Below, in pieces: positions 3,134 to 36,096 of a stretch of 43,130 nt of DNA; position 1 is the first letter of the stretch, and each line of letters begins with the position of its first letter. The notes under the pieces are model-generated. The model was given only the letters and a program-made list of their open reading frames with translations, did not search any database and was not told the origin of the DNA. This DNA is from Verrucomicrobiales bacterium. Its GTDB lineage: Bacteria > Verrucomicrobiota > Verrucomicrobiia > Limisphaerales > UBA9464. The DNA is taken from the NCBI GenBank assembly GCA_027483345.1, contig JAIXUV010000298.1:1-43130 (forward strand), written 5' to 3'. A program made the translations under genes and the position numbers.

Positions 3134-6100
3134 CTAATCCTTCGCGGGAAGGGCGACCTGGGTCGGATGGCGCAGGTAGGCCACGAGGTCGCGTCGCTCC
3201 GCCGCGGTCATTCCGTCGAGGAGTCCCTCCGGCATCATCGAACTGGATTGCGTCTCGATCCGGCCCACGTCTTCGCGGGTCAGCGTCAGCGGACCGGCAG
3301 CTGTCAGCAGGGTGATGGCTCCGGGATTCGGCGACCGCAGCAGGCCATTGAGGGTGCGGCCGTCCTTGGTTTCGACCACGGTCATCCGGTAGTCGGCGGC
3401 CACGACGGAGCTGGGTGCGACGACGTTCTCAAGCAGGTAGCCCAGGTCGGAACGTCCCGATCCGGTGAGGTCCGGTCCCAGTTCGCCGCCTTCGCCGTAG
3501 AGCTTGTGGCAGGATGCACAGATCCGCTGGAACAGGCGTCGGCCCGCGACGAGGTCCTCCTTCCCGTTTGCCGCTGAGAGTTCCATTCGAAGCCGTTCGA
3601 TCGACTGGCGGAGATCCGGATCCGCAGCGCCGACCGTTCCCCAGGTTTCCCCCAGACGTCGCGAGAGCGATTCGTCGCCCAGACCGACGATTTGACGGGC
3701 CACCGCCGGGGAAATGTCCGCCGCGGCGATCCGTCGGTCGGCGACGGCTTCGACGACGGCCTTGGCGGTGGCGACGCGGGATGCGGCCGCGGCAATGACC
3801 CGAGCCCGATCCGGAGGCTGCATCCAACGCAGCTTGCCTCCGATCAACGCGGGTGCTGCGGAGTCTCCGATCCCTATCAAGCCCAAGAGCGATTCCGTCC
3901 AAAGATCCCGCTCCTCGGCCAGTTCCTTCAGCAGTTCACCGAGTCCCTCGGGGCGCGCCTCCACGATGGCGGACAAGGCGGACCTGCGGGCGGTTGGATC
4001 CGCCTGTTTGTCCCGTGCAGTCGCCTTCAGGGAGTCGATGGCTCGGCCGTCGCCGAACACGGAGCCCAGTTCGACGGCCAGCGCACGGACCCGCGGATCC
4101 TGGCTGGTGGCGAACCTCTTCGAGGCTGCGGACCAAGTGCCCGGTGCAGCAACCTTTCGTGCACCCCGCAGGCCGGTGGCAAGTGCCTCGAGGACGTCCA
4201 ATTGCTCGGTTGAAGGACGGTCCGTGACCTTCTTCAGCAGTTCTCCGAGTTGGAGATGGAAACGGGGCAGTTCTTCCGCCATCCGTCGGGCGAGGTTGTG
4301 TCTCAGCAGATGGATCCGCGAGTCGGCCGCGATGCCCAGCGCCTCGTTGGGATGTGTGTTCACCAACGGTTCCAGGGCGAACCACAACATTCGTCCCAGG
4401 TTGGCATCGGCGTCGTCTTCCTGTCGGAGGCTCAGCGCCGCAAGGATGGGGACGCGTTGCTCGTGGCGAATCCTTCCCAGGGTCGAGGCGATGTAGAGCC
4501 GGACCAGCGCGGATCGGTCGGTGCGGGAGAGAACCGTGAGTTCACCCACGGTCGGCGCGCCGGGTTCCGGGAGTTCGTCCGCGAGAAGTCGCACGGCCCA
4601 ACTGCGGACATGCTCGTCCGGGTCCCTCAGAAGACGTCGGAGCAGCTCCGGGGAGGCTCCATCCGAGGCCACCAAGGCCCAAAGCGCGCGGAGGCGTCCC
4701 AGGCGGGATGGATCCGAGGCCAACCTTTCCTGGAGAGTCGAAATGGCGGGCTCACCCAGATTTCCGGCCGCGGCCCGATCACGGAGGAGAATCCTTCCCA
4801 TGCGCCGCCGCCACTCCGATTTCCCCGACTGGCTTTCGATCAACTCCTCCAAAGTGGGGCTGGTCCCGAAGGCGGCCAAGGCGCCTGGCGCGTTGGTGTA
4901 GGCCAGGCGGTAGATGCGGCCGGAACTCCGGTGCACACCGTCGTGTTCATGGCACTCACCGGTGTCCGACCAGTCGGAGATGTAGGCGGCGCCGTCGGGT
5001 CCTTGGATGATGTCGGTCGGGCGGAACCATGGATCCGGGGAGAAGCCGAAGTCCGGGGAATGTCTTCCCACGAAGCCGGACCCTTTCCGTTCGAGGCGTT
5101 CGCGGTTGATGCGACGTCCATGGAGATTGAGCGTGAAGAGGGCTCCTTCGTATTCCGGCGGCCAGTTGCCACCCTGGTAGATCATCAGGCCGGTATGGGC
5201 ATGCCCTCCACCGAGGGAGTCGCTGCCGGACGCCACCGAACCGTCCTGTTGTCCCGCGCGGGAGCGGGTCCAACCGGCGCCGGTGTCGAAGTGGAAATGG
5301 TCGGCGTGCTGCTCGATCGGCGAATAGACGTAGGGGGTGGGATCCTCGCCGTACATCCTGCGGTAGTGGGCACCAGGAATGGCATGCCAGAGGTGTCCGA
5401 TGACGGTGTTGATGAAGAAGGGTTCGCCTTCGGGATTCCAGTCGTTGCCCCACGGATTGGTCGTGCCGTGCGCCACGGACTCGACTCGGCGTGTCTTGGG
5501 ATGGTAGCGCCAGATGCCGCCACCCATGTTGATCCGCGCGGATTCCGGGTCTCCGGGACGCCCGACCCGGGTGGGACTGGAGATCCCGACGCGGCCCCAG
5601 AGCCATCCGTCGGGTCCCCAGCGAAGGCCATTGGCGAGGGTGTGGTGGCTGCCGGTGGTGGTGTCGAATCCGTCCAGGATCGTTTCGGGCGGCCCATCCG
5701 GGATGTCGTCTCCATTGCGGTCCGGCACGAAAAGCAGGCGGGGAGGGCAGAGCAACCAGACTCCACCGAGCCCTGTCTCCACGCTGGTCAGAAGCTTGAG
5801 GCCGTCGAGGAACACCTTCCTGGATTCGGCCCGGCCATCACCGTCGTCGTCCTCCAGGATCAGGACCCGATCGTCGAGGTTGGTAGCGAAGAGCACCGGT
5901 GGTTCCGCATAGGTGAAGTTCTCGGCAACCCAGAGGCGTCCCCGGGGATCGAAGGTCAAGGCGATGGGCTGACGGACGTCGGGTTCCGCCGCCACCACCG
6001 AGACGGAGAATCCTGGCGGGAGCCTCCATCCGGCGGCGGCTTCCGATGGAGTCAGAGGTCGTGTGGTCGATCTCTCCGTGTCGGCTGGGAATGATGGCTC

Positions 6101-6166
6101 GGCTCCCTTCAGCCCGAGGCATGCGAACAGCATGGCGCCAAAGCCGCGGAAGATAGGGAAGACCAT
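3134..6166 (-). CDS. PVC-type membrane-bound dehydrogenase / CxxCH heme protein
   Basis: A 1010-residue exported protein of the type common in Planctomycetota and Verrucomicrobiota. A hydrophobic N-terminal segment (residues 1-21) looks like a signal peptide. Residues of about 45-440 match the PVC beta-propeller-like 'membrane-bound dehydrogenase' domain (LTFDPRGRLWVAE, DRNGDDIPDGPP, GPDGAAYISDW). The middle, about 460-840, is helical with HEAT-like repeats (DEHVRSWAVRLL, DPRVRALAVEL). The C-terminus is a cytochrome-c-like domain with the heme site CASCH at 883-887 and a likely methionine ligand in SSSMMPEG near 977. It probably acts in periplasmic electron transfer or oxidation of a carbohydrate-type substrate. 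The substrate is unknown. Confidence 0.9.
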   Translation of the reverse strand: MVFPIFRGFGAMLFACLGLKGAEPSFPADTERSTTRPLTPSEAAAGWRLPPGFSVSVVAAEPDVRQPIALTFDPRGRLWVAENFTYAEPPVLFATNLDDRVLILEDDDGDGRAESRKVFLDGLKLLTSVETGLGGVWLLCPPRLLFVPDRNGDDIPDGPPETILDGFDTTTGSHHTLANGLRWGPDGWLWGRVGISSPTRVGRPGDPESARINMGGGIWRYHPKTRRVESVAHGTTNPWGNDWNPEGEPFFINTVIGHLWHAIPGAHYRRMYGEDPTPYVYSPIEQHADHFHFDTGAGWTRSRAGQQDGSVASGSDSLGGGHAHTGLMIYQGGNWPPEYEGALFTLNLHGRRINRERLERKGSGFVGRHSPDFGFSPDPWFRPTDIIQGPDGAAYISDWSDTGECHEHDGVHRSSGRIYRLAYTNAPGALAAFGTSPTLEELIESQSGKSEWRRRMGRILLRDRAAAGNLGEPAISTLQERLASDPSRLGRLRALWALVASDGASPELLRRLLRDPDEHVRSWAVRLLADELPEPGAPTVGELTVLSRTDRSALVRLYIASTLGRIRHEQRVPILAALSLRQEDDADANLGRMLWFALEPLVNTHPNEALGIAADSRIHLLRHNLARRMAEELPRFHLQLGELLKKVTDRPSTEQLDVLEALATGLRGARKVAAPGTWSAASKRFATSQDPRVRALAVELGSVFGDGRAIDSLKATARDKQADPTARRSALSAIVEARPEGLGELLKELAEERDLWTESLLGLIGIGDSAAPALIGGKLRWMQPPDRARVIAAAASRVATAKAVVEAVADRRIAAADISPAVARQIVGLGDESLSRRLGETWGTVGAADPDLRQSIERLRMELSAANGKEDLVAGRRLFQRICASCHKLYGEGGELGPDLTGSGRSDLGYLLENVVAPSSVVAADYRMTVVETKDGRTLNGLLRSPNPGAITLLTAAGPLTLTREDVGRIETQSSSMMPEGLLDGMTAAERRDLVAYLRHPTQVALPAKD

Positions 6167-6729
6167 GCCTCAGGCTGCCGCGCGGCGGAAACCAAGGCAA
6201 CGTGGCAGAGCCCTTGGGAACCCTTCGGAACGGCCGGCGCCGCGGACGGCTTCTCCCGACTTCAGCGCGATGCGGGATCCGGTGCAGGCCAACCCCCATT
6301 CCAGATCCTGGAAACGAAAACTGCGGAAGACTAAGCGAAGTCCCGGCCTTTGGATGCGTTGCATCGACCAGGAGGTGAAGGAGTCCGGAAAGAAAGAAGC
6401 CGGGCGCAGTTGGTTGAAGGGACAATCATGCGCCCGGCTCCGGACCATCACCCGATGACCCGCGGAGAAGGACGGAAGGATAGAAGTAAGGGTTACGTTT
6501 GTTCCCAAAGACGGCCTGCGCCGACAAGCTGCTGATTCCAAGGCATTAAAAGCATCGGTCCTTCCTGGTTTCCTGCTTGGGCGCTGGTTGCCCATCAGGA
6601 TGGAAATTGAAGTGAGACCCTGGTTGGAGACCCAAGTGGCGAAGGGAGCCGGTAGGGCGCCGACCCTGTCGATTGGGCGCGGCAGAGGTGCCACTGACAA
6701 CCGGAAGCACTGGGCTGTCGAAGCCTGAA
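6167..6729. other. 563-bp intergenic region
   Basis: This spacer lies upstream of the PVC heme protein and downstream of the BlaR-like gene. Several open frames cross it but none has recognisable domains or a convincing start. The only clear structure is the 6383-6445 inverted repeat, listed separately. It should contain the promoter for the PVC heme-protein gene, which I could not locate. Confidence 0.5.
6383..6445 (-). terminator. Probable terminator on the minus strand
   Basis: A perfect 11-bp inverted repeat, AGCCGGGCGCA (6398-6408) and TGCGCCCGGCT (6429-6439), with a 20-nt loop. Read on the minus strand the stem is followed by TCTTTCTTTCC, a U-rich tail. An outer pair, GTCCGG/CCGGAC (6383-6388, 6440-6445), can extend the structure around that tail. 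It sits about 290 bp after the BlaR-like stop codon, so it may end the BlaI-BlaR transcript. Confidence 0.55.
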
Positions 6730-7737
6730 CTACGATGTGGCCGTCGCTGAAACCGCGGTTCCCGGGTTTGGGTGACCTGTGGGGGTGGGTTCCCCATCGG
6801 TCAGTCCGACCAAGATGAACGCCAGCACCGTGCAGAAGCCCACCACCCAGGTCCGGTGTTCGGTTCGGAATCGGGCGATGGCACGCACCCGGTGCACCAG
6901 CGACTCCGGGGCTTCCGCTCCGCCGTCGAATCGGAGGAGGGCCTGACCGATCCGAGTCGGACCGGCCGACATCAACTCCAAGACCCGAAGGAGGACCCTT
7001 CCATAGGTCTGGTTGCAGCCCGGTGTGGAAGACAATGCGTCGGCGTCACACGCCTCTTCGCGATCCTCACGCAATTTGCGGTAAACGGTCCAGACGACCG
7101 GATTGAACCAATGGACCGCGCGGACGATCTCGAGAAGCCAGTTCCAGAGGAGGTCCCCCCGTCGGAGATGGCCAAGTTCGTGGAGGAAGACCAGCCGCAT
7201 CTCCTCCTGGGAAAACGTCGTTGAAAAACCGACCGGAACGAGGAGGCGCGGATGGATGGAGCCGATCAGGCAGGGGCTTTGAACCCGACCGGTTTCCATG
7301 AGGTGAACCGGTGCGGAAATGCCGGACTCAATGCGGCAACTCTCCCACAACCACCAAACCTCCCAGGAGTCGATCGGCTTGGAATCGCGAACCATCCACC
7401 ACGCCTTGGCATGCCCGAAGAGTGTGCGCATCAACAGGATGGATGCGCCGAAAAGCCAGGCCAACGCCATGCCATTCCAATGTTCGGCTGGGATCTCCGC
7501 AGCCGAGAGCCGGGGCAGGAGTGGGCCGGTGAGGTTGAACAGGCTGACTGGACTGGGAAGCTGGATGGGCCAGGCCAATCGGACGATCACCACCAGCCAA
7601 AGGAGACAGCGCCATTCCGGTCCCAGATGGCGTCCAAGCAGACTACGGACGCCGAAGATGGCCATTCCAAGAATGGCGGCGTGGGACGATGCCCCAAGGA
7701 GGGCGAGGCCAAGATCGCGCACGGTTTCCGGGTTCAT
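6730..7737 (-). CDS. M56 family (BlaR1-like) membrane metallopeptidase
   Basis: A 335-residue integral membrane protein of peptidase family M56. Transmembrane segments are visible near residues 17-34, 43-60 and 92-107. The zinc protease motif HELGH is at 186-190 with the downstream RRGDLLWNW, and another membrane segment (FCTVLAFILVGL) lies near the end. It stops a few residues after that segment, so the extracytoplasmic penicillin-binding sensor domain of classical BlaR1/MecR1 is absent. In the family, the activated protease leads to loss of the partner repressor. The BlaI-type gene is 33 bp upstream on the same strand, so the two are almost certainly co-transcribed. The inducing signal is unknown. 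Confidence 0.88.
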   Translation of the reverse strand: MNPETVRDLGLALLGASSHAAILGMAIFGVRSLLGRHLGPEWRCLLWLVVIVRLAWPIQLPSPVSLFNLTGPLLPRLSAAEIPAEHWNGMALAWLFGASILLMRTLFGHAKAWWMVRDSKPIDSWEVWWLWESCRIESGISAPVHLMETGRVQSPCLIGSIHPRLLVPVGFSTTFSQEEMRLVFLHELGHLRRGDLLWNWLLEIVRAVHWFNPVVWTVYRKLREDREEACDADALSSTPGCNQTYGRVLLRVLELMSAGPTRIGQALLRFDGGAEAPESLVHRVRAIARFRTEHRTWVVGFCTVLAFILVGLTDGEPTPTGHPNPGTAVSATATS

Positions 7738-7770
7738 ACCGAGAGGGGTTACGCGGACCCTCCAAGCAGT

Positions 7771-8148
7771 TCACTTGCCGGCGTCTTCTTCCAAGGCCTG
7801 CTTCAGTTCGCGGATCTGCTTTTGGGACAATTGCCGTCCGTCGACGAAGTGGGCCAGCATGGTGGCCACGGAGCCGCCGAAAACCCGGTCCAAGAACGAA
7901 CTGGAAACCGAAGCCACACAGTCCTTCTCGTTGACCGTGGCACTGTAGAGATAGGCCCGTCCTTGCGGGCTGTAGCTCAGGGCGCCCTTCTTCACGAGGC
8001 GGTTGAGCAGGGTTTTCGCGGTGACCGGGTGCCAGGAAGAGTCCTCGGATTGGAGATCCGAGATGATGTCGGCCGCCGTGATGGGTTGCCGACGCCAGAC
8101 GATCCGCATGATTTCCCACTCCGTTTCCGAGATGCGAGGCAAAGACAT
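7771..8148 (-). CDS. BlaI/MecI-family transcriptional repressor
   Basis: A 125-residue winged-helix repressor of the BlaI/MecI (penicillinase repressor) family. It begins with the typical MSLPRISETEWEIMRIVW helix, continues with the recognition region (HPVTAKTLLNRLVKKGAL) and the wing GRAYLYSA, and ends with the dimerisation helices after SSFLDRVFGGSVATMLAHF. The ATG at 8148 is chosen over the ATG-less extension upstream because AGGAG lies four bases before it and it begins exactly at the family N-terminus. It is followed by the M56 protease gene. It is expected to repress its own operon and release it when the protease is activated. Confidence 0.92.
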   Translation of the reverse strand: MSLPRISETEWEIMRIVWRRQPITAADIISDLQSEDSSWHPVTAKTLLNRLVKKGALSYSPQGRAYLYSATVNEKDCVASVSSSFLDRVFGGSVATMLAHFVDGRQLSQKQIRELKQALEEDAGK

Positions 8149-8163
8149 GGAACTCCTGGATTT

Positions 8164-8211
8164 GAGGTGAAGCACTGGCGACCCCAAACGAGTACGCCGA
8201 GGATTCACCTC
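8164..8211. promoter_or_regulatory. Inverted repeat upstream of the BlaI-type gene
   Basis: Perfect 8-bp arms GAGGTGAA (8164-8171) and TTCACCTC (8204-8211) flank 32 bp, directly upstream of the blaI-type start. The position suits a repressor operator or promoter architecture. The sequence does not match the TACA-N-TGTA core of known Bla/Mec operators, so the assignment is speculative. Confidence 0.3.
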
Positions 8212-8257
8212 TGTCAACGATGGCTCCCGATCTCTGCAGGGCGCACCGCAGGAGACC

Positions 8258-8818
8258 TCAAACCGTGAGGATTTCCTTCTCCTTCACCGCCAGATGCTGG
8301 TCGATCTTGGCGATGAAACCGTCGGTGAGCTTCTGGACCTCGGTCTCGGCGTTCTTGATGTCGTCCTCGGAGACGCCGCCGTCGTTTTTGAGCTTCTTGA
8401 GCGATTCGATCGCCTGACGGCGTTCGTTGCGGACGGCGACCCGGCCTTCTTCGGACATCCGTTTGCAGATCTTGACGTATTCCTGGCGCCGCTCGGTGCT
8501 CAACTCGGGCAGGACCAGTCGGATGAAGCGACCTTGGACGGCGGGATTGAGGCCCAGTCCTGCCGACTGGATGCCTTTCTCGATCGCCTTCATGTTGGCC
8601 GTGTCGAAGGGCTGGACCATGAGCATCCGCGATTCCGGGGCGGCAATCGTGGCGAGCTCCTTGAGACGCATCATCGAGCCGTAGGCCTCGATCATCACGT
8701 TTTCGATCAGGGAGGGCGTCGCCTTGCCGGTGCGGACGCCGCTGAACTGGTGGACCACGTGGTCCTCGGTCTTCAGCATCTTCTCCTCGGTCTCGAAAAG
8801 CACTTCGTCGATGGTCAT
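8258..8818 (-). CDS. frr: Ribosome recycling factor
   Basis: A 186-residue RRF, the expected family length (185 in E. coli). It releases ribosomes from mRNA after termination together with EF-G. Recognisable features are the opening helix (MTIDEVLFETEEKM), the FSGVRTGKATPSLIENV segment, IQSAGLGLNPA, LPELSTERRQEYVK and the closing long helix. The start at 8818 places the protein 37 bp after pyrH on the same strand. pyrH-frr adjacency is a very common bacterial arrangement, which supports both calls. Confidence 0.97.
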   Translation of the reverse strand: MTIDEVLFETEEKMLKTEDHVVHQFSGVRTGKATPSLIENVMIEAYGSMMRLKELATIAAPESRMLMVQPFDTANMKAIEKGIQSAGLGLNPAVQGRFIRLVLPELSTERRQEYVKICKRMSEEGRVAVRNERRQAIESLKKLKNDGGVSEDDIKNAETEVQKLTDGFIAKIDQHLAVKEKEILTV

Positions 8819-8855
8819 GGGATGTTGGGTGATGGGGTATCGGGCGGGACGCCGA

Positions 8856-9590
8856 TCAGGTGGTGACGAGGGTGCCGACCTTCTTCCCGAGGACCACGTT
8901 GCGGAGGTTGTGGGCCTTGAAGAAGTCGAACACGATGATCGGCATCTTGTTGTCCATGCAGAGGGCGAACGCCGCGGCATCCATCACCTTCAACTGCTTT
9001 TCCAGCGCCGTGGAATAGGCCACCTGTTCGTACCTCTTGGCATCCTTGTGCTTCACCGGATCCTTGTCGTAGATGCCGTCGACCTTGGTCGCCTTGAGCA
9101 CGACTTCGGCGCCGATTTCGTTGGCCCGTAGAGCGGCGGCGGTGTCGGTGGAGAAGTAGGGGTTGCCGGTTCCGGCGGCGAATATCACCACGCGCCCCTT
9201 CTGCAGGTGGCGCACTGCACGGCGGCGGATGAACGGTTCGGCGATCTGGGTCATGTTGATGGCGCTTTGGACCCGCGTCTGGACCCCCTGCTTCTCGAGA
9301 GCGTCCTGCAAGGCCAAGGCGTTGATCACCGTGGCGAGCATGCCCATGTAGTCGCCGGTCGCGCGTTCGATGCCCTTCTCGGAGCCCTGAAGGCCGCGGA
9401 AGATGTTGCCTCCGCCGACGACGACGACGACCTCGACTCCGAGGCGTTGGACCTCCGCCACCTGGGCGGCCATGTCGTGGACACATTCCGGGTCGATCCC
9501 GGAACCGCCGACTCCTCCCAACGCCTCGCCGCTCAGCTTCAACAGAATGCGCCGGAAACGTGGGGAGGGGGATGCGGGTGCCTTCTTCAT
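8856..9590 (-). CDS. pyrH: Uridylate kinase (UMP kinase)
   Basis: A 244-residue amino-acid-kinase-fold UMP kinase that phosphorylates UMP to UDP in pyrimidine nucleotide synthesis. Motifs include [10 protein letters not shown] near the start, [12 protein letters not shown], the UMP-binding [14 protein letters not shown], and [20 protein letters not shown]. The ATG at 9590 gives the usual short N-terminus. A TTG at 9632 overlapping the dprA stop would add 14 residues without family similarity. The gene is between dprA and frr and likely shares a transcript with them. Confidence 0.97.
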
Positions 9591-9628
9591 CAGAACGCGT
9601 CGGTGATAGCAGCCGGAGCTTGCCGACG

Positions 9629-10759
9629 TCAACGGACCTGACCCGAAGGTCCGATCCGTGTGAACCGTCGTCCCGGTGCCTGACGTACCAGCCGCTTCAT
9701 CTCGAGCGAGAACAGGGCGACGTTCGCTGCGCTGGTCGACAGGCCGCTGGCCCGGATGAGTTCGTCGGCTTCCATCTCACCTTGGCCGAGGACGGAGTAG
9801 AGTGCCTGCTCGGCAGCCCCGAGTGGGACTGTGGCGACGGTCTCGGTCTCGGAATCGGGCCTGTTCGAAGGGGGGAAGAGGTATTCGAAGTCGCCGAGGA
9901 TGTCCTCGATGCCCTCACAGAGCTTGGCCCCCTTCTTGATCAGTTCGTGACATCCGCGGCTGCGTGGGGAGTCGATCCGTCCCGGGACCGCGAACACCTG
10001 TCTTCCGTACTCCACCGCGAAGTCGGCGGTGATCAGTGCGCCGCTGCTCAGGTTCGCTTCGATCACGGCAGTGCCGAGGGTCATCCCGGCGACGATCCGG
10101 TTGCGGATGGGGAAGGACTGCTTGTCCGCGGGCCGATCGAAAGGAAACTGGGTGATCACCGCCCCTTTCTCCGCGATCTGGTGGAACAGGTCCGCGTTCT
10201 CGGGTGGGAAGACGCGGTTGATGCCGGTCCCGAGCACGGCGATCGTGCGGCCCTTGGCGCTGAGGGCTCCCTGATGCGCCGCGGTGTCGATCCCCCGTGC
10301 CCCGCCGCTGACCACGGCAACCCCGGCGTAGGCGAGTTGGTAGCCGAAGCGCCGTGCCATTTCGATGCCGTAGGCGGTCGTCAGGCGGGAGCCGACCAAG
10401 GCCACCGCATTCCGGTCCGATGCGAGCAGCGTGCCTCGGACGTACAGGACGATCGGCGGATCGTAGATCTCCCGGAGCAACGGTGGGTATTCGGGATCGC
10501 GGTCGCAGAGAACCCGGACACCCGACTGCTGAATGCGTCGGAGTTCCCCGTCGAGATCCGCGAGTTCCCGCCATCGCGAGATCGAATCGGCGGTCTCGGC
10601 GCCGACGCCATGGACCGTCCGGAGCACCTCCGACGGGGAGTGGAGTACGGCCACCGGATCGTCGTCGAAGTGCCGGAGGAGTTGTCGCAGCCGAATGGGG
10701 CCGACGTGTTCGAGGCGGTTGAGGGCGATCAGGGCTTCGAGGCGTTCCATTCCGCCCAT
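9629..10759 (-). CDS. dprA: DNA processing protein DprA
   Basis: A 376-residue DprA/Smf protein, which loads RecA on incoming single-stranded DNA during natural transformation. An N-terminal helix-hairpin-like region (about 1-65) precedes the Rossmann-like core with [45 protein letters not shown] and [18 protein letters not shown]-terminal winged-helix domain (about 305-365) ends the protein. pyrH begins 38 bp downstream, and the sulfatase gene lies 48 bp upstream on the same strand. It is full length, with no sign of decay. Other competence genes are not in the window. Confidence 0.95.
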
Positions 10760-26529: not shown

Positions 26530-27078
26530 ATGAAGTTCCCGCTTTCCCAACTGGCGCTGGTCCTCGGTTCCGGCTGCCTGCTGGCCCACCTCTGGCCCCT
26601 GTTGAGCCCCGGTAGCTGCGCCGCCTGGTTGCGCCGCTTCCATCGCAACACCGCCGTCGGCGTGTTCCTCGTCCTGCTCGGCACCGCCTGGTTCGAGTGG
26701 AACCTGATCACCACCGACATCTCCGACTTCTCGGAGTTCCGGACTCCCTTGCTGGTGGGATTTGTCGTCCTCGGGATCGGATGCTGCTTCTTCGTCCGCG
26801 ACTACCTGTCCATCCGCGGCCTGGCCATCGTGGCCTGCCTTGCTGCGGACGTGGTCCTCGACTCCCAACGTTGGCATCCCAGCCCGTTCAAGAACGTGGT
26901 AACGGCCTGGGCCTACGTGTGGGTGGTCGCCGGCATGTGGTTGGCCGTCGCCCCTTGGCGCGCCCGCGACTGGCTGGCCTGGTGCACCGCACAGGAAAGC
27001 CGGTTGCGCGCGTTGGGTCTCGCAGGCGTCGCCTGGGGCGCGTTGGTCGCGGTCCTTGGCCTTACGGCCTACCGCTGA
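26530..27078 (+). CDS. Six-helix membrane protein of unknown function
   Basis: A 182-residue, very hydrophobic protein with about six transmembrane segments: near residues 5-25, 43-60, 72-90, 95-110, 125-143 and 160-178. Tryptophan is frequent and the loops are short. No domain is recognised. In particular it lacks the DxxxD motifs of UbiA prenyltransferases, so it is not EboC. The ATG at 26530 starts the first helix; the open frame upstream has no similarity. It lies 82 bp after eboD on the same strand and may share its transcript. A membrane partner for the EboD product is an untested possibility. Confidence 0.65.
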   Translation: MKFPLSQLALVLGSGCLLAHLWPLLSPGSCAAWLRRFHRNTAVGVFLVLLGTAWFEWNLITTDISDFSEFRTPLLVGFVVLGIGCCFFVRDYLSIRGLAIVACLAADVVLDSQRWHPSPFKNVVTAWAYVWVVAGMWLAVAPWRARDWLAWCTAQESRLRALGLAGVAWGALVAVLGLTAYR

Positions 27079-27875
27079 TCCCTGCGGTCTTCGACGTCTC
27101 CCTCGGACTCCGGTCCCGGGAGTTGCACGATCAGTAGGGCTTCCGCGTCGTCGCCGGCGGGAGCAAGGGCGAGCACCTCACCCTGCGGTCCCACCACCAT
27201 CGACGAACCGATGCAGCGCCATCCCGTCCACGCTCCGGCCACCACCGGTCCCACGTTGCTGCAGCCGGCGATCGACATGCCGAATTCCCGGCAGACCCGA
27301 CCGTAGCTTTCCTTCCAGAGCCCGCCATAAGGCTCCGACACCAGATCCCGCTCCGGCGGTACCGCCCAGGCGCAGGGCGAAAGGATCCACCGGGCGCCGC
27401 GTCGTCCCAACTCCCGCGTGTGCACCAACCCCTCGGCGAAGGCGTCCGCGCAGATGACCACGCCGCCCCGGCCCCAAGGCGTCTCCACGGTCTCCACCCG
27501 GTCGCCGACGTCATAGAGCTCCTGGGCGAAGTCGAGTTCGTGGATCTTGCGATGGTGGTGGACGACGGTTCCTTCCGCGGACACGAGGATTGCCGCGTTG
27601 TGCAGTCGAGCCCCGTTCCTCTCCACCAGGCCGGCGCAGACCCAGATGCGGTGGCGCCGTGCGGATTCGCAGAGCCGAACGCAGGCCTCGCCGTCGGGAA
27701 CGCCACCCGCCAGGATCCGTGCGCTGGGGTGGGTCCAGCCGCAGTCCAACGTCTCCGGCAGCACGACGATCTCCGCGCCCGCGCGGGCCGCCTCGCCGAT
27801 CGCCCGATCCGCGCGGGCGAGGTTCGTTTCCGGGAGGCCGGGTTCCACCCGGATCTGGGCCAGGGCAAGTCGCAT
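27069..27875 (-). CDS. Carbon-nitrogen hydrolase (nitrilase superfamily)
   Basis: A 268-residue nitrilase-superfamily amidohydrolase. The catalytic triad is visible: E41 in VVLPET, K110 in HHHRKIH and C142 in GVVICADAF. The order and spacing match aliphatic amidases, N-carbamoyl hydrolases and related C-N hydrolases. The substrate cannot be told from sequence alone. The ATG at 27875 gives the standard MRLALAQIRV beginning. Its 3' end overlaps the convergent membrane-protein gene by about ten bases. Its start is 58 bp from the divergent PrcA-like gene, so the two share a promoter region. Confidence 0.9.
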   Translation of the reverse strand: MRLALAQIRVEPGLPETNLARADRAIGEAARAGAEIVVLPETLDCGWTHPSARILAGGVPDGEACVRLCESARRHRIWVCAGLVERNGARLHNAAILVSAEGTVVHHHRKIHELDFAQELYDVGDRVETVETPWGRGGVVICADAFAEGLVHTRELGRRGARWILSPCAWAVPPERDLVSEPYGGLWKESYGRVCREFGMSIAGCSNVGPVVAGAWTGWRCIGSSMVVGPQGEVLALAPAGDDAEALLIVQLPGPESEGDVEDRRDQR

Positions 27876-27933
27876 GCGGGAATCGTTTCCGGCCCTTGGC
27901 GAAGCCGGCGTTTGGGGTGAGTCTCGGGGCGAC

Positions 27934-28647
27934 ATGACCGACGAACCGTACCGTTGGCTCGAGGCCGTCGCCCAACGACGCGAGTATGTCCGCGACCAGA
28001 TCCGCGACGCCACCCCGGCGTTCGCGGTGGGACTTCCGGACGGCATCCTCGTCCTTGGCCTCGGCACCCCGGGCACGAAGGTCTTCGAGGTGCATGACCG
28101 CCACGCGGTGGCGGCGCTGGGACATCCCTCCGACATCGAACGGATCCGTCAGGCCGCGATCGACGCCGCCCACCTGGAAGCCTTCACCCGCGCGCCGGAG
28201 GACCTCAGCCTGAGGCGTCTCGTGGGCTTCAGCCTCAGCGCCGCGTTGAAGGGCGCCTTCGAGGACCTCCGCGCAGCTCCGGTCCTCGCCGAGTTCCTCT
28301 TCGTCGAACTGGCCGACACCCCGGCCAAGGACGTGTTCGCGCGACTCCACGCCGACGGTGGCTTCACTTTTTCCAGTCGGTTCTCGGTGGCCGCCGCCCA
28401 GGGCGAAGCCGAGATCCGGGCTGCGCTGGAGACCTCGCTGGAGGGCGTGGTGGACCGCACGGAAGCGGCCCGTCGATGTCTGGCAGCTTGGGAAGGCTGG
28501 GTCGCGGGTGAGGCTGGACGTCGGGTCGCTCCGAATCCGGTCCGGGGTGTCGACAGCCCTTCGTGGGAGGCCGCGTGGCTGCGTCGTCATGGCGGACCTG
28601 CGGCCCGGTTCGAACCGCTCCCCGTCCAAACGCTCGGCCTTCCCTGA
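27934..28647 (+). CDS. prcA: Proteasome alpha-subunit-like protein (PrcA-like)
   Basis: A 237-residue protein of the Ntn-hydrolase proteasome fold, closest to bacterial alpha subunits. The N-terminal helix (YRWLEAVAQRREYVRDQI) followed by TPAFAVGLPDGILVLGLG corresponds to the actinobacterial PrcA start (MRERSELARKGI, then VVALAYAGGVLFV). Later segments VAALGHPSDIERIRQAAI, RLVGFSLSAALKGAFED and VLAEFLFVEL follow the PrcA pattern. Like other alpha subunits it has no N-terminal catalytic threonine. The PafA/Dop-like gene starts 13 bp downstream, the pairing seen in bacterial proteasome loci. No beta subunit (PrcB) is in the window. The assignment is from pattern recognition and is fairly secure because of the neighbour. 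Confidence 0.78.
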   Translation: MTDEPYRWLEAVAQRREYVRDQIRDATPAFAVGLPDGILVLGLGTPGTKVFEVHDRHAVAALGHPSDIERIRQAAIDAAHLEAFTRAPEDLSLRRLVGFSLSAALKGAFEDLRAAPVLAEFLFVELADTPAKDVFARLHADGGFTFSSRFSVAAAQGEAEIRAALETSLEGVVDRTEAARRCLAAWEGWVAGEAGRRVAPNPVRGVDSPSWEAAWLRRHGGPAARFEPLPVQTLGLP

Positions 28648-28660
28648 GCCCTCCACGCCG

Positions 28661-30103
28661 ATGCATCGCCTCGTCGGACTCGAGACCGAATACGGCTGCC
28701 TGAGCTCCGATCCCTCCGGCCCCGGTCCCGCGGTCGCCCGGCTTCGGGACTGGATCTTCGGCGGGAACCGGCTCGGACTTCTCGACCGACACCAGCGCGA
28801 CTGGGATGAGCCGGCCGGGAACGGCGGCTTCCTCTTCAACGGTGGCCGTGCCTACGTGGACATGGGCCACCTGGAGATCTGCACGCCCGAGTGCCTTGGG
28901 ATCGCCGACCTGGTCCGCTTCGACCGCGCCGGCGACCGGATGCTCTCCGAGGGCGTGGCGGAAACCGGGTTGGGCGACGTGGCGGGATTCCTGCGCAACA
29001 ACGTCGACCACTTCACCGGCGCCACCTTCGGATGCCACGAGAACTACCTCGTGCGCCGGACCGTCCCGCTGCATGAGCGGAACGTCATCTCCCTGCTGGC
29101 CTTCCTGGCGTTGCGCACCCTCTACACCGGAGCGGGGAAGGTGGGCGGGGTACCCGGCGTCGAACTGGGCGGCGGCGGCGAGTCCCCGCCCGTTCCAATC
29201 CAATTCCAGGTCAGCCAACGCGCCGACTACATCCAGAATGAGCTGTTCGAATGGGTGCAGTTCAACCGTTCCCTGATCAACACCCGCGACGAGCCGCTCG
29301 CGGATTCCCGGCGCTTCCGTCGGCTCCACCTGCTGCACGGCGACACCAGCGTGCTGCCCTGGACCCTGGCCATGAAGGTCGGCACCACGGCGCTCGTGCT
29401 GGACCTGCTGGAGATCGACCATCTGCCGCCGGTTTCCCTGCAGGACTCTGTCGCCGTCCTCCGGCGTCTTTCGAGGCAACCCGACGGACCGTGGAGGGTG
29501 CCCATCGAGGGCTCGTCCGAGGCCGAGGCCGTCGAGGTGCTCGCCCGCTATCAGCGGCTTGCGGAATCCGAGTTCCGGGGACGCGACGCGGAGACCGACC
29601 TCGTGCTTTCCGAATGGCGCCTGGCCCTCGAAGCCTTGGAAAGCGGCCCGGAGACGCTGGTCGGTCGCGTGGACTGGATCACCAAGCGGTGGCTTCTCCG
29701 CCAGTTCGTCGAGTCCGAGGGGCTCGACTGGTCGGACGACTGGCTGAAGTCGCTCGACCTGGAGTTCCACCGCGTGGATCCCGAACGGAACCTCGCCTGG
29801 CCGACGGTTGCCGAGGGGACTCCGTGGACGCCGTCCCCGGAAGCGGTCGCTTCGGCCATGGACCAGCCTCCGGCCGACACGAGGGCCGCGGTGCGGGGCA
29901 GGGCGGTGCGCGAACTCGCGGGCCGGAAGGTGGCCGCGTTCCTCGACTGGGAGGTTGTCGACGCCGAAGGGGTCAATCCCCTCATGCTCCCGAATCCGTT
30001 CGATCCCGATCCGGCGCCGCTCGCCGAATGGCTGCAGGGTCTCGACCAGGCCCGGCCTGCGGCGTCGCCCCCGGAGAACGTGCCGCCAGTGGATCCGGAT
30101 TGA
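28661..30103 (+). CDS. Pup/UBact ligase-deamidase family protein (PafA/Dop-like)
   Basis: A 480-residue protein of the PafA/Dop carboxylate-amine-ligase fold. Active-site elements are VGLETEYG (E8 and E10), GGRAYVDMGHLE (D67, the family catalytic aspartate), PEC at 76-78, RNNVDHFTGATFGCHENYL (112-130), SQRADYI and INTRDEPLADSRRFRRLH (206-223), and KVGTTALVLDLLE. It resembles both PafA (ligase) and Dop (deamidase/depupylase). The RRDW-like insert before GGFLFN and the PPADTRAAVRGR segment lean to Dop, but this is not decisive. The gene follows PrcA. No Pup or UBact tag and no Mpa/ARC ATPase is nearby. The start at 28661 fits the conserved N-terminus. Confidence 0.85.
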   Translation: MHRLVGLETEYGCLSSDPSGPGPAVARLRDWIFGGNRLGLLDRHQRDWDEPAGNGGFLFNGGRAYVDMGHLEICTPECLGIADLVRFDRAGDRMLSEGVAETGLGDVAGFLRNNVDHFTGATFGCHENYLVRRTVPLHERNVISLLAFLALRTLYTGAGKVGGVPGVELGGGGESPPVPIQFQVSQRADYIQNELFEWVQFNRSLINTRDEPLADSRRFRRLHLLHGDTSVLPWTLAMKVGTTALVLDLLEIDHLPPVSLQDSVAVLRRLSRQPDGPWRVPIEGSSEAEAVEVLARYQRLAESEFRGRDAETDLVLSEWRLALEALESGPETLVGRVDWITKRWLLRQFVESEGLDWSDDWLKSLDLEFHRVDPERNLAWPTVAEGTPWTPSPEAVASAMDQPPADTRAAVRGRAVRELAGRKVAAFLDWEVVDAEGVNPLMLPNPFDPDPAPLAEWLQGLDQARPAASPPENVPPVDPD

Positions 30104-30159: not shown

Positions 30160-31188
30160 ATGATCCGCTCCCGATCCTTCCTCTCCGCCGCCCTCCGTTT
30201 CGCCTTGGCGGCGTCTCCGCTGTTGTGCGCCCGTGCGGACGAGTCGACTCCGGCCACCCGCACCGTCGCCGCCGCCGAGGCGTTGATCTCCACCCTGGAT
30301 GCCGCCCAGCGGTCGGCCGTGGTCTTCGCCTACACCAACCAGGTCCAGCGCCGCCTGTGGTCCAACCTGCCCACGCCGATGGTCCGACGCACCGGACTCC
30401 GCTGGGGCGACCTCAAGCCCGACCAGTTGAAGGCGGCCGAGGGAGTGCTGAAGGCCGCACTCAGCGGCATGGGCTACGAGAAGGTCATGAGCATCGTCGA
30501 GGCGGAGGAGGTGCTGAAGAACTCCCCGGGCAACCCGGGGAACCTCGTCTTCGGAAAGGACGAGTTCTACCTCTCGTTCGTCGGCGCCCCTTCTGCCGAG
30601 AAGCCCTGGATGATCCAGTTCGGCGGGCATCACCTGGCGATCAACGTCACCGTCGCCGGAACCAACGGCGTGCTCACCCCGAGCCTCACCTGCACGCAAC
30701 CGGCCAGCTTCCAGCGCGACGGCAAGACGGTCCGGCCGCTCGGACGCGAGAACGACCTCGCGTTCCAGCTGATGGGGACCCTCGACGCCTCCCAGAAGTC
30801 CGCGGCGGTGCTCGGCGCGCGGTTCCGCGACATCGTCCTCGGGCCCGGTCAGGACGGACGCCGCATCGCCCCGGAGGGTGTGAAGGTGTCCACGTTCACG
30901 CCGGCCCAACGGAAGCTGTTGCTGGAACTTGTCTCGCAATGGGTCGCGATCATCCGCGACGACGCCGCGGCCGCGAAGATGTCCGAGATCGAAGGCAACC
31001 TCGACCAGACCTGGTTCGCCTGGAGCGGCCCGACGGAGCCGGGATCGGCCGCCTACTTCCGCATCCAGGGCCCCACGGTGGTCATCGAGTACGCTCCCCA
31101 GAGCCTCGGCGGTTCCGCGTTGAACCACACCCACACCATCTACCGGGACCCCACCAACGACTACGGCAGCCGCTTCGGCGGCTTCTGA
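30160..31188 (+). CDS. Secreted DUF3500 family protein
   Basis: A 342-residue protein with a signal peptide (residues 1 to about 26, ending LLCARA) and a DUF3500-type body. Recognisable family segments are FAYTNQVQRRLWSNLPTPMVRRTGLRWGDL, GKDEFYLSFVG, WMIQFGGHHLAINVT and LNHTHTIYRDPTNDYG. The conserved His-rich stretches (FGGHHLA, NHTHTIYRDP) could bind metal, but the family function is unknown. It lies 56 bp after the PafA/Dop-like gene on the same strand and 16 bp before the HupE-ectodomain-like gene. The latter two are probably a functional pair. Confidence 0.85.
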   Translation: MIRSRSFLSAALRFALAASPLLCARADESTPATRTVAAAEALISTLDAAQRSAVVFAYTNQVQRRLWSNLPTPMVRRTGLRWGDLKPDQLKAAEGVLKAALSGMGYEKVMSIVEAEEVLKNSPGNPGNLVFGKDEFYLSFVGAPSAEKPWMIQFGGHHLAINVTVAGTNGVLTPSLTCTQPASFQRDGKTVRPLGRENDLAFQLMGTLDASQKSAAVLGARFRDIVLGPGQDGRRIAPEGVKVSTFTPAQRKLLLELVSQWVAIIRDDAAAAKMSEIEGNLDQTWFAWSGPTEPGSAAYFRIQGPTVVIEYAPQSLGGSALNHTHTIYRDPTNDYGSRFGGF

Positions 31189-35452: not shown

Positions 35453-35680
35453 ATGATCAAGATGGTTACCAAGGTCGGCAATTCGCAGGGCATCATCTTC
35501 GACTCCGCCTTGATGGAGTTGGCCCACTTGAAGGTTGGCGACGAGCTCAACGTGGAGGTGCACGATGGAGGCACTCTCACCCTCACGCCCATACGGCCTT
35601 GTCCTCCGCGTGAAGAGGTGACCCGAGTCATCCAGTCCACGATGAAGGACTACGCCCGGACCATGAAGAAGCTCGCATGA
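35453..35680 (+). CDS. AbrB/MazE-type antitoxin
   Basis: A 75-residue swapped-hairpin AbrB-family protein. The N-terminal DNA-binding fold is clear in MVTKVGNSQGIIFDSALMELAHLKVGDELNVEV, and the C-terminal 30 residues form a charged toxin-binding tail. The first ATG (35453) lies almost at the predicted transcription start. An ATG at 35462 has AGGA at suitable spacing and may be the true start, giving 72 residues. The stop overlaps the toxin ATG as ATGA. It should neutralise the adjacent Doc-type toxin and repress the operon. AbrB-type rather than Phd-type partners for Doc are known but less typical. Confidence 0.85.
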   Translation: MIKMVTKVGNSQGIIFDSALMELAHLKVGDELNVEVHDGGTLTLTPIRPCPPREEVTRVIQSTMKDYARTMKKLA

Positions 35681-36096
35681 GGACCGGTCCCGAAAACTGC
35701 TTTCATCTGACGGTGGAGATTGTTCGGGAGATCCACGCCGCGGCCATCGCCAACTTCGGAGGGTCCGATGGATTGAGCGAGCCGGCCCTTCTGGAATCTG
35801 CCGTGGCGGCCCCGCGGGCAACCTACGGTGGCCGGTCGCCCTACGCGGACTTGGCCGAAATCGCGGCGGCGTACCTGTTCTACATCTGCCGAAACCATCC
35901 GTTCATCGATGGAAACAAGAGGGCCGCCCTAGGAGCCTGTCTGGTCTTCCTTCGGCTCACTGGTGTTGAACCCGAGGCGGACGGCCCCGCCTGGGAGCAG
36001 CTCACCATGGACGTCGCCGGCAGCCTCTTGGACCGGGAACAGACCACCGCCCGGCTCCGGCAATTGCTGCCCGCGGTCCATCCGTCGGCCACCTGA
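35677..36096 (+). CDS. Doc-type Fic-fold toxin
   Basis: A 139-residue Fic-superfamily protein of the death-on-curing type. The catalytic motif is HPFIDGNKR (residues 74-82), matching HxFx(D/N)GNKR with the Doc-type NK in place of the second Gly of true Fic AMP-transferases. The preceding helices contain LTVEIVREIH and GLSEPALLESAVAAPRATY, the usual Doc N-terminus. Doc toxins phosphorylate elongation factor Tu and stop translation. The gene overlaps the antitoxin by the ATGA junction, and all key residues are intact. No mobile element flanks the pair. Confidence 0.92.
   Translation: MRTGPENCFHLTVEIVREIHAAAIANFGGSDGLSEPALLESAVAAPRATYGGRSPYADLAEIAAAYLFYICRNHPFIDGNKRAALGACLVFLRLTGVEPEADGPAWEQLTMDVAGSLLDREQTTARLRQLLPAVHPSAT

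Follow-up and report, generated by a model that had tools for sequence, protein, structure and literature searches.

The proteasome-related content of the window (the whole 43 kb stretch of DNA that was analyzed) consists of two adjacent genes on the forward strand, flanked by a nitrilase-family gene on the opposite strand and by a downstream gene that is not part of the system. The ends of the two central genes are program-made ORF ends, and both start codons were chosen by the analyst.

27069..27905, minus strand: divergent nitrilase-family CN_hydrolase (PF00795, E = 4.5e-31)
27934..28647, plus strand: prcA, 20S proteasome alpha subunit of UBact type, 237 aa (TIGR03691, profile, Foldseek)
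28661..30103, plus strand: putative pafA-type Pup/UBact ligase, 480 aa (PF03136, alignment, tree, dN/dS)
30160..31188, plus strand: DUF3500 protein, downstream neighbor (PF12006, E = 1.4e-87)

The prcA stop and the pafA-type start are 13 bp apart, and 28 bp lie between the nitrilase start and the prcA start (chosen start codons). The first-pass annotation had read a PrcA-like and a PafA/Dop-like gene 13 bp apart beside a divergent nitrilase, and had seen neither beta subunit nor tag nor ATPase in the 43 kb; the coordinates, the PF03136 and PF00795 matches, and the profile and fold of PrcA agree with this, and none of the three missing components was matched in the window. Elsewhere in the window (35453-36096), a small AbrB-like ORF precedes one resembling Doc/Fic, which contains HPFIDGNKR (we assume the motif and both family assignments); the two look like a toxin-antitoxin pair.

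Judged by sequence, the alpha subunit is a divergent PrcA. The Pfam search of window proteins gave no family match for it at E ≤ 1, and the match to TIGR03691 was weak (E = 1.9e-9, 37 bits; cut-off 139). With a profile built from 15 PrcA relatives, the top eight matches were all actinobacterial proteasome chains (best E = 4e-15), of which six carry the name alpha subunit and the other two the name ‘20S proteasome, alpha and beta subunits’, and the ninth was an unrelated protein (E = 0.62). An AlphaFold2 model (51 sequences; pLDDT 90, pTM 0.88) was searched against the PDB with Foldseek; all 50 of the matches listed were mycobacterial or Rhodococcus 20S chains, the best with E = 1.1e-13 and TM values of 0.78 (query) and 0.85 (target). 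Alpha and beta are unlabeled in these rows, which include 1q5q_A, named alpha in the profile search. As modeled, PrcA has the proteasome-subunit fold, and the original PrcA call withstood the structural comparison at this level.

The genome to which the window belongs (G000) is a MAG of 5.08 Mb in 402 contigs, 95.5% complete and 5.4% contaminated. PrcB, UBact and the proteasomal ATPase gave no match in the 43 kb window (for UBact, tblastn at E ≤ 1e-4), and all own-genome matches were on other contigs; the local absence is therefore real, and genome-wide absence is not implied. These matches and a second Pup_ligase were on three contigs of 8-19 kb.

C310:5940-6113, strand not given: UBact tag, 57 aa, C-terminus RTGE (NF033388, PF20513)
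C310:6110-6910, strand not given: PrcB beta subunit (PF00227, TIGR03690)
C75, strand not given: Dop-type Pup_ligase paralogue (TIGR03688, Dop-loop, identity)
C183, strand not given: Mpa/ARC-type proteasomal ATPase (TIGR03689, AAA, both Prot_ATP_ID_OB domains)

The tag passed both NF033388 (E = 3.1e-20, 72 bits; cut-off 35) and PF20513 (E = 7.1e-21, 74 bits; cut-off 27.8), which bears out the initial assignment to the bacterial proteasome/pupylation genes and specifies the UBact type; its stop overlaps the prcB start as ATGA. PrcB matched PF00227 (E = 5.5e-22) and scored 139 bits for TIGR03690 (cut-off 192) vs. 28 bits for HslV. Counted from ...QA/TTVLAFHFRDGVLVAGDRR...DK (...QA/TTVLAF), it has T1, D17 and K33, and Thr1, Asp17 and Lys33 are what we take to be the catalytic residues. 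This genome yielded a single match to PF00227 and a single PrcA match. The Pup_ligase paralogue on C75 scored 429 bits for Dop (TIGR03688) vs. 316 for PafA (TIGR03686), and its alignment with A. cellulolyticus Dop gave 45% identity across 394 columns. For the C183 ATPase, the TIGR03689 match (E = 1.1e-111, 374 bits; cut-off 505) was far ahead of the runner-up in the same genome (E = 2.8e-40, 139 bits); Pfam AAA was found, and the OB domains PF17758 and PF16450 were above cut-off. Dop, PrcB and ATPase all scored under the NCBIfam cut-offs, the models being actinobacterial, and for TIGR03689 this was so in 18/18 genomes with a match, own included. PF00227 was positive in 11 of 14 control genomes, and TIGR03689 at E ≤ 1e-60 also in four archaeal controls and Corynebacterium. 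Bare matches to these two families are thus unspecific, and the ATPase and PrcB calls rest for that reason on scores, OB domains and residues. The genome-wide partner search proposed at first pass therefore returned PrcB with UBact on one contig, a second paralogue on another and the ATPase on a third, which is a split locus; the absence of partners read at first pass is true for the window and misleading for the genome.

The enzyme in the window matched Pfam Pup_ligase PF03136 with E = 3.7e-105 (1/14 control genomes positive, Corynebacterium) and carries a GLETE (GhExE) motif, with Asp67 (the Asp of Y-V-D) at the catalytic position. The Dop-loop, of ~40 residues, is present in 7/7 dop-position rows of alignment A2, the C75 paralogue included, and is absent from the window enzyme and 11 ligase-position relatives; the loop is described as kept in Dop and missing from PafA orthologs in PMC7947786 (Mol Biol Evol 2020). 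The PafA/Dop tree has a fully supported branch between 12/12 ligase-position and 15/15 dop-position rows. Gene position, the missing Dop-loop and elimination, with the tree not taken as the basis, favor a PafA-type enzyme. That the enzyme lies instead on the depupylase side, with another job for the C75 paralogue, is very unlikely. Its TIGR03688 score is slightly above that for TIGR03686 (252 bits, cut-off 492, vs. 237 bits, cut-off 551), and an AU test leaves a grouping with actinobacterial Dop standing (P = 0.11), as it does one with actinobacterial PafA (P = 0.47), on four references of which two are partial. Against this, C75 is clearly Dop-type and has the loop that the window enzyme lacks, the likelihood cost is lower for grouping with actinobacterial PafA (0.46 vs. 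3.29 with Dop), and gene order puts the window enzyme in the ligase position. In the best tree, its group was not joined to actinobacterial PafA; identities were 35% to A. cellulolyticus Dop and 33% to C. glutamicum PafA. These comparisons used two actinobacterial references for identities and four for the tree, which has long branches; the plasmid collection gave two records, of which one, a Nonomuraea chromosome filed as plasmid, was a reference. The alpha-loop residues YIQNELFEWVQFNR are, by eye, unlike either pattern in the published table (PMC7947786). Orthology to actinobacterial PafA is the tentatively favored reading of these sequences. The first-pass view that PafA and Dop cannot be told apart from sequence was in part too cautious, given the missing Dop-loop and the grouping with ligase-position genes, and in part sound, as for deep orthology both groupings keep standing; the phylogeny it had suggested sides with the ligase-position genes, at that depth only.

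The same four pieces were located in G004, a better-assembled sister genome (a pond MAG in 70 contigs).

G004 ATPase: C32 at 16.7 kb, contig of 21 kb
G004 Dop: C25 at 128 kb, contig of 292 kb
G004 PrcB: C51 at 16.2 kb, contig of 68 kb
G004 PrcA-PafA: C28 at 69 kb, contig of 80 kb

Even with contigs placed end to end, these pieces are at least ~12 kb apart. The main collinear blocks between G000 and G004 were 97.2% identical over 16.5 kb at prcA-pafA, 97.1% over 5.1 kb at dop, 93.9% over 11.8 kb at ubact-prcB and 94.4% over 7.6 kb at the ATPase, with two extra blocks, one of 3.0 kb (94.5%) and one of 1.3 kb (84.8%). Flanks are common to both genomes at all four loci, and the DUF3500 gene is in the same place; at dop the match stops ~80 bp past the gene, so that the upstream flank alone is common there. 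Two further sisters, both fragmented, have ATPase, Dop and PrcB each on separate contigs; in one (G013), PrcA runs off a contig end and PafA was not found, and in the other (G006, 67% complete) neither PrcA nor PafA was found. An assembly or binning origin of the split, by contig breaks or mis-binning of one ordinary operon, would fit the 402 contigs and 5.4% contamination of G000 and the small size of C75, C310 and C183 (8-19 kb). It is nevertheless extremely unlikely given the same four-way split with common flanks inside far longer G004 contigs, and the separate contigs in G013 and G006, fragmented as these are. The four-way split looks genuine from these comparisons.

The survey set comprised 59 genomes (the own genome and 58 relatives), 19 with a Pup_ligase match; among these 19, PrcA was found in 17, PrcB in 18 and the ATPase in 18. 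The common order in relatives is ATPase-dop-ubact-prcB-prcA-pafA. Within the window's genus, 4 of 19 genomes had a Pup_ligase match, own included, and most sisters are without the system. prcB adjoins prcA in 14/17 genomes with both, the exceptions being G000, G004 and G013, all of this genus; contig-separated pieces in other genera were not counted as splits, contig breaks being possible. Across 80 named loci, 69 have >1.5 kb of sequence ahead of PrcA, and in 58 of these PrcB is its immediate upstream neighbor; 69 have enough sequence on the downstream side, and in 52 of these PafA comes directly after PrcA. The 11 loci without PrcB upstream were L093 and L094 (G004 and G013 by coordinates), L149 (not followed) and eight in G060-G067, outside the genus. 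PrcB was found elsewhere in 8/8 of G060-G067, which also have two or three Pup_ligase matches each (8/8) and, except for G060, an ATPase match (7/8; 9/10 of all genomes searched). PrcB was present in 11/11 followed genomes, and no split genome that was followed had lost it. The PrcA tree had 51 rows (50 loci from the set of 80, plus the window; the split loci L094, L104 and L149 were among those left out), and its split rows comprise those of the window's genus, a clade of six rows (L097, L102, L105, L107, L117, L127) and L103. The linked and split states need three changes on it, two forced by well-supported branches, with gains and losses of linkage indistinguishable by parsimony. From these changes, operon fission looks recurrent.

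Several loci of this survey stood out for other reasons. L105, L102 and L126 are MAGs titled Klebsiella pneumoniae, Proteobacteria and Omnitrophota with PrcA among Verrucomicrobiota-labeled rows, and are probably mislabeled by this placement. Inserts between prcA and pafA in L097, L102, L127 and L159, all from other genera, were compared by eye, and none was common to all four. A similar 117-aa ORF immediately precedes pafA at L097:4915-5268 and L159:1942-2295, separating it from prcA; in L127 the ORF at that position is PIN-like, and L102 has a Sel1-like ORF. The 117-aa and PIN-like ORFs were rejected as pathway genes, as by eye they look like toxin-antitoxin parts. Seven loci (L166-L172; three labeled Methylacidiphilales, one Chthoniobacterales) have UBact, PrcB and PrcA, with Dop in 6/7 and the ATPase in 4/7. 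No separate PafA match was found in their fetched sequence, which in five extends ~10 kb downstream; possibly a single enzyme does both ligation and depupylation, or the ligase gene lies at another place. In the same family, L224 (G028:C62:6000-20000) has, in the 4190-10131 region, a divergent proteasomal ATPase and Pup_ligase stretches in two adjoining ORFs, one of them of 925 aa, and a 66-aa ORF (7478-7678) ending GGQ. The G028 genome had no match to the PrcA or PrcB queries, and by its sequence the locus is perhaps a proteasome-less tagging system.

The nitrilase (E ≤ 1e-60) was found in 3/19 genomes of the genus, G000, G004 and G013; four genomes of the genus were searched for prcA, and the three in which prcA was found are the same three. 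Among loci fetched up to that comparison, the nitrilase was beside prcA in this genus only, and on these grounds the idea that it generally stands in for PrcB or the tag gene was rejected. Given the coincidence with prcA, the nitrilase may be locally associated with it and may share its promoter region in this genus, and is probably not a general component of the system. Its dN/dS between G000 and G004 was 0.30.

For the components, dN/dS between G000 and G004 was 0.24 for PrcA, 0.15 for PafA, 0.20 for Dop, 0.08 for PrcB, 0.08 for UBact (5 differences only) and 0.11 for the ATPase. Against G013 the values were 0.20 (Dop), 0.03 (PrcB) and 0.11 (ATPase), and against G006, 0.20 (Dop) and 0.07 (PrcB). 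The compared sequences are close, so that single values are rough; with every component below 0.25, they point to purifying selection at all four loci.

A reduced two-gene form, with PrcA and the enzyme in a new role without beta subunit, tag or ATPase, had been offered at first pass as the alternative to dispersal. The two system genes in the 43 kb, their staying together in G004 and the usual placement of PafA directly downstream of PrcA are in its favor; the pair is, however, the final two genes of the usual operon, catalytic residues are kept, dN/dS is low, and PrcB is found elsewhere in all eight other-genus genomes without it upstream of PrcA. With PrcB, UBact, the Dop paralogue and the ATPase all in G000, the reduced system is ruled out, its probability being negligible, and dispersal over four loci is the part of the proposal that stands. 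The window pair is very probably part of a complete UBact-proteasome system that is divided among four unlinked places.

The UBact-proteasome system of Gram-negative bacteria was reportedly described by Lehmann et al. in 2017 with its genes in one cluster. G000 resembles it in a tag ending GE, a PrcA/PrcB core, PafA-type and Dop-type paralogues (of the two Pup_ligase paralogues, one has the Dop-loop and one does not) and an ATPase, and differs in that the genes of G000 and G004 are at four unlinked places, a single cluster being customary for the system without being required. Fold and component set are like those of the actinobacterial Pup-proteasome (Mycobacterium, Rhodococcus, Nonomuraea; Dop, PrcB and PafA are within about 12 kb at the Nonomuraea locus L214), whereas the tag is UBact, not Pup, and ligase, Dop, PrcB, PrcA and ATPase are all under NCBIfam cut-offs. 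The Mpa C-terminal tail motif is GQYL; unlike it, 18/18 ATPases listed (own included; loci L006, L040-L056) have V or I as the last residue, frequently as VV or IV, and the sequence thus suggests that docking onto the alpha ring uses another kind of tail. A docking-tail loss specific to the window's genus was rejected on this count. Plesiocystis and Rhodopirellula have Pup neighborhoods without proteasome genes, according to a 2008 study (PMC2588565); Pup_ligase-family enzymes are common to these and G000, and unlike them G000 has both 20S subunits in the genome. The same study states that PafA homologs and Pup are genomic neighbors in all bacterial lineages, the Pup gene invariably adjoining one (PMC2588565), and in contrast to that statement neither enzyme gene in G000 is near the tag gene. 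No dispersed UBact-proteasome locus was described in the literature found, as judged by title and abstract start and with the founding UBact paper not among it.

Most likely, the sequences encode a known kind of UBact-proteasome pathway, predicted to be working, with its genes dispersed. An ancestral operon of the common order ATPase-dop-ubact-prcB-prcA-pafA would have been broken in this lineage into ATPase, dop, ubact-prcB and prcA-pafA. By analogy with the Pup system and from the gene anatomy found here, the PafA-type enzyme would activate UBact at its C-terminal glutamate with ATP and join it to lysines of target proteins; as UBact ends RTGE, deamidation should be unnecessary. The Dop paralogue would take UBact off its targets, and the AAA ATPase with OB domains would thread proteins that carry the tag into the 20S core that PrcA rings and PrcB would form. 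The presence of the components, their family matches, gene order, catalytic residues, dN/dS < 0.25 and fold were established directly, and we infer the ancestral gene order, activity, 20S assembly and co-regulation in trans. The machine is a known one with a derived gene order, and the unusual feature is the gene arrangement alone; the function is not new.

A 20S particle needs alpha and beta subunits in equal numbers, and here these are encoded at separate loci. It is conceivable, if rather improbable, that each of the four units (ATPase; dop; ubact-prcB; prcA-pafA) is under separate regulation in the genus, with tag plus beta and ligase plus alpha as two separately set dials; if true, this would allow, for example, alpha-ring storage, or tagging without degradation, under some conditions. 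The result removes a candidate ‘minimal proteasome’, and indicates that a particle of two subunits, together with its own enzymes for tagging, can remain complete when its operon breaks up. For annotation in Verrucomicrobiota, a PrcA without an adjacent PrcB does not mean that the proteasome is absent.
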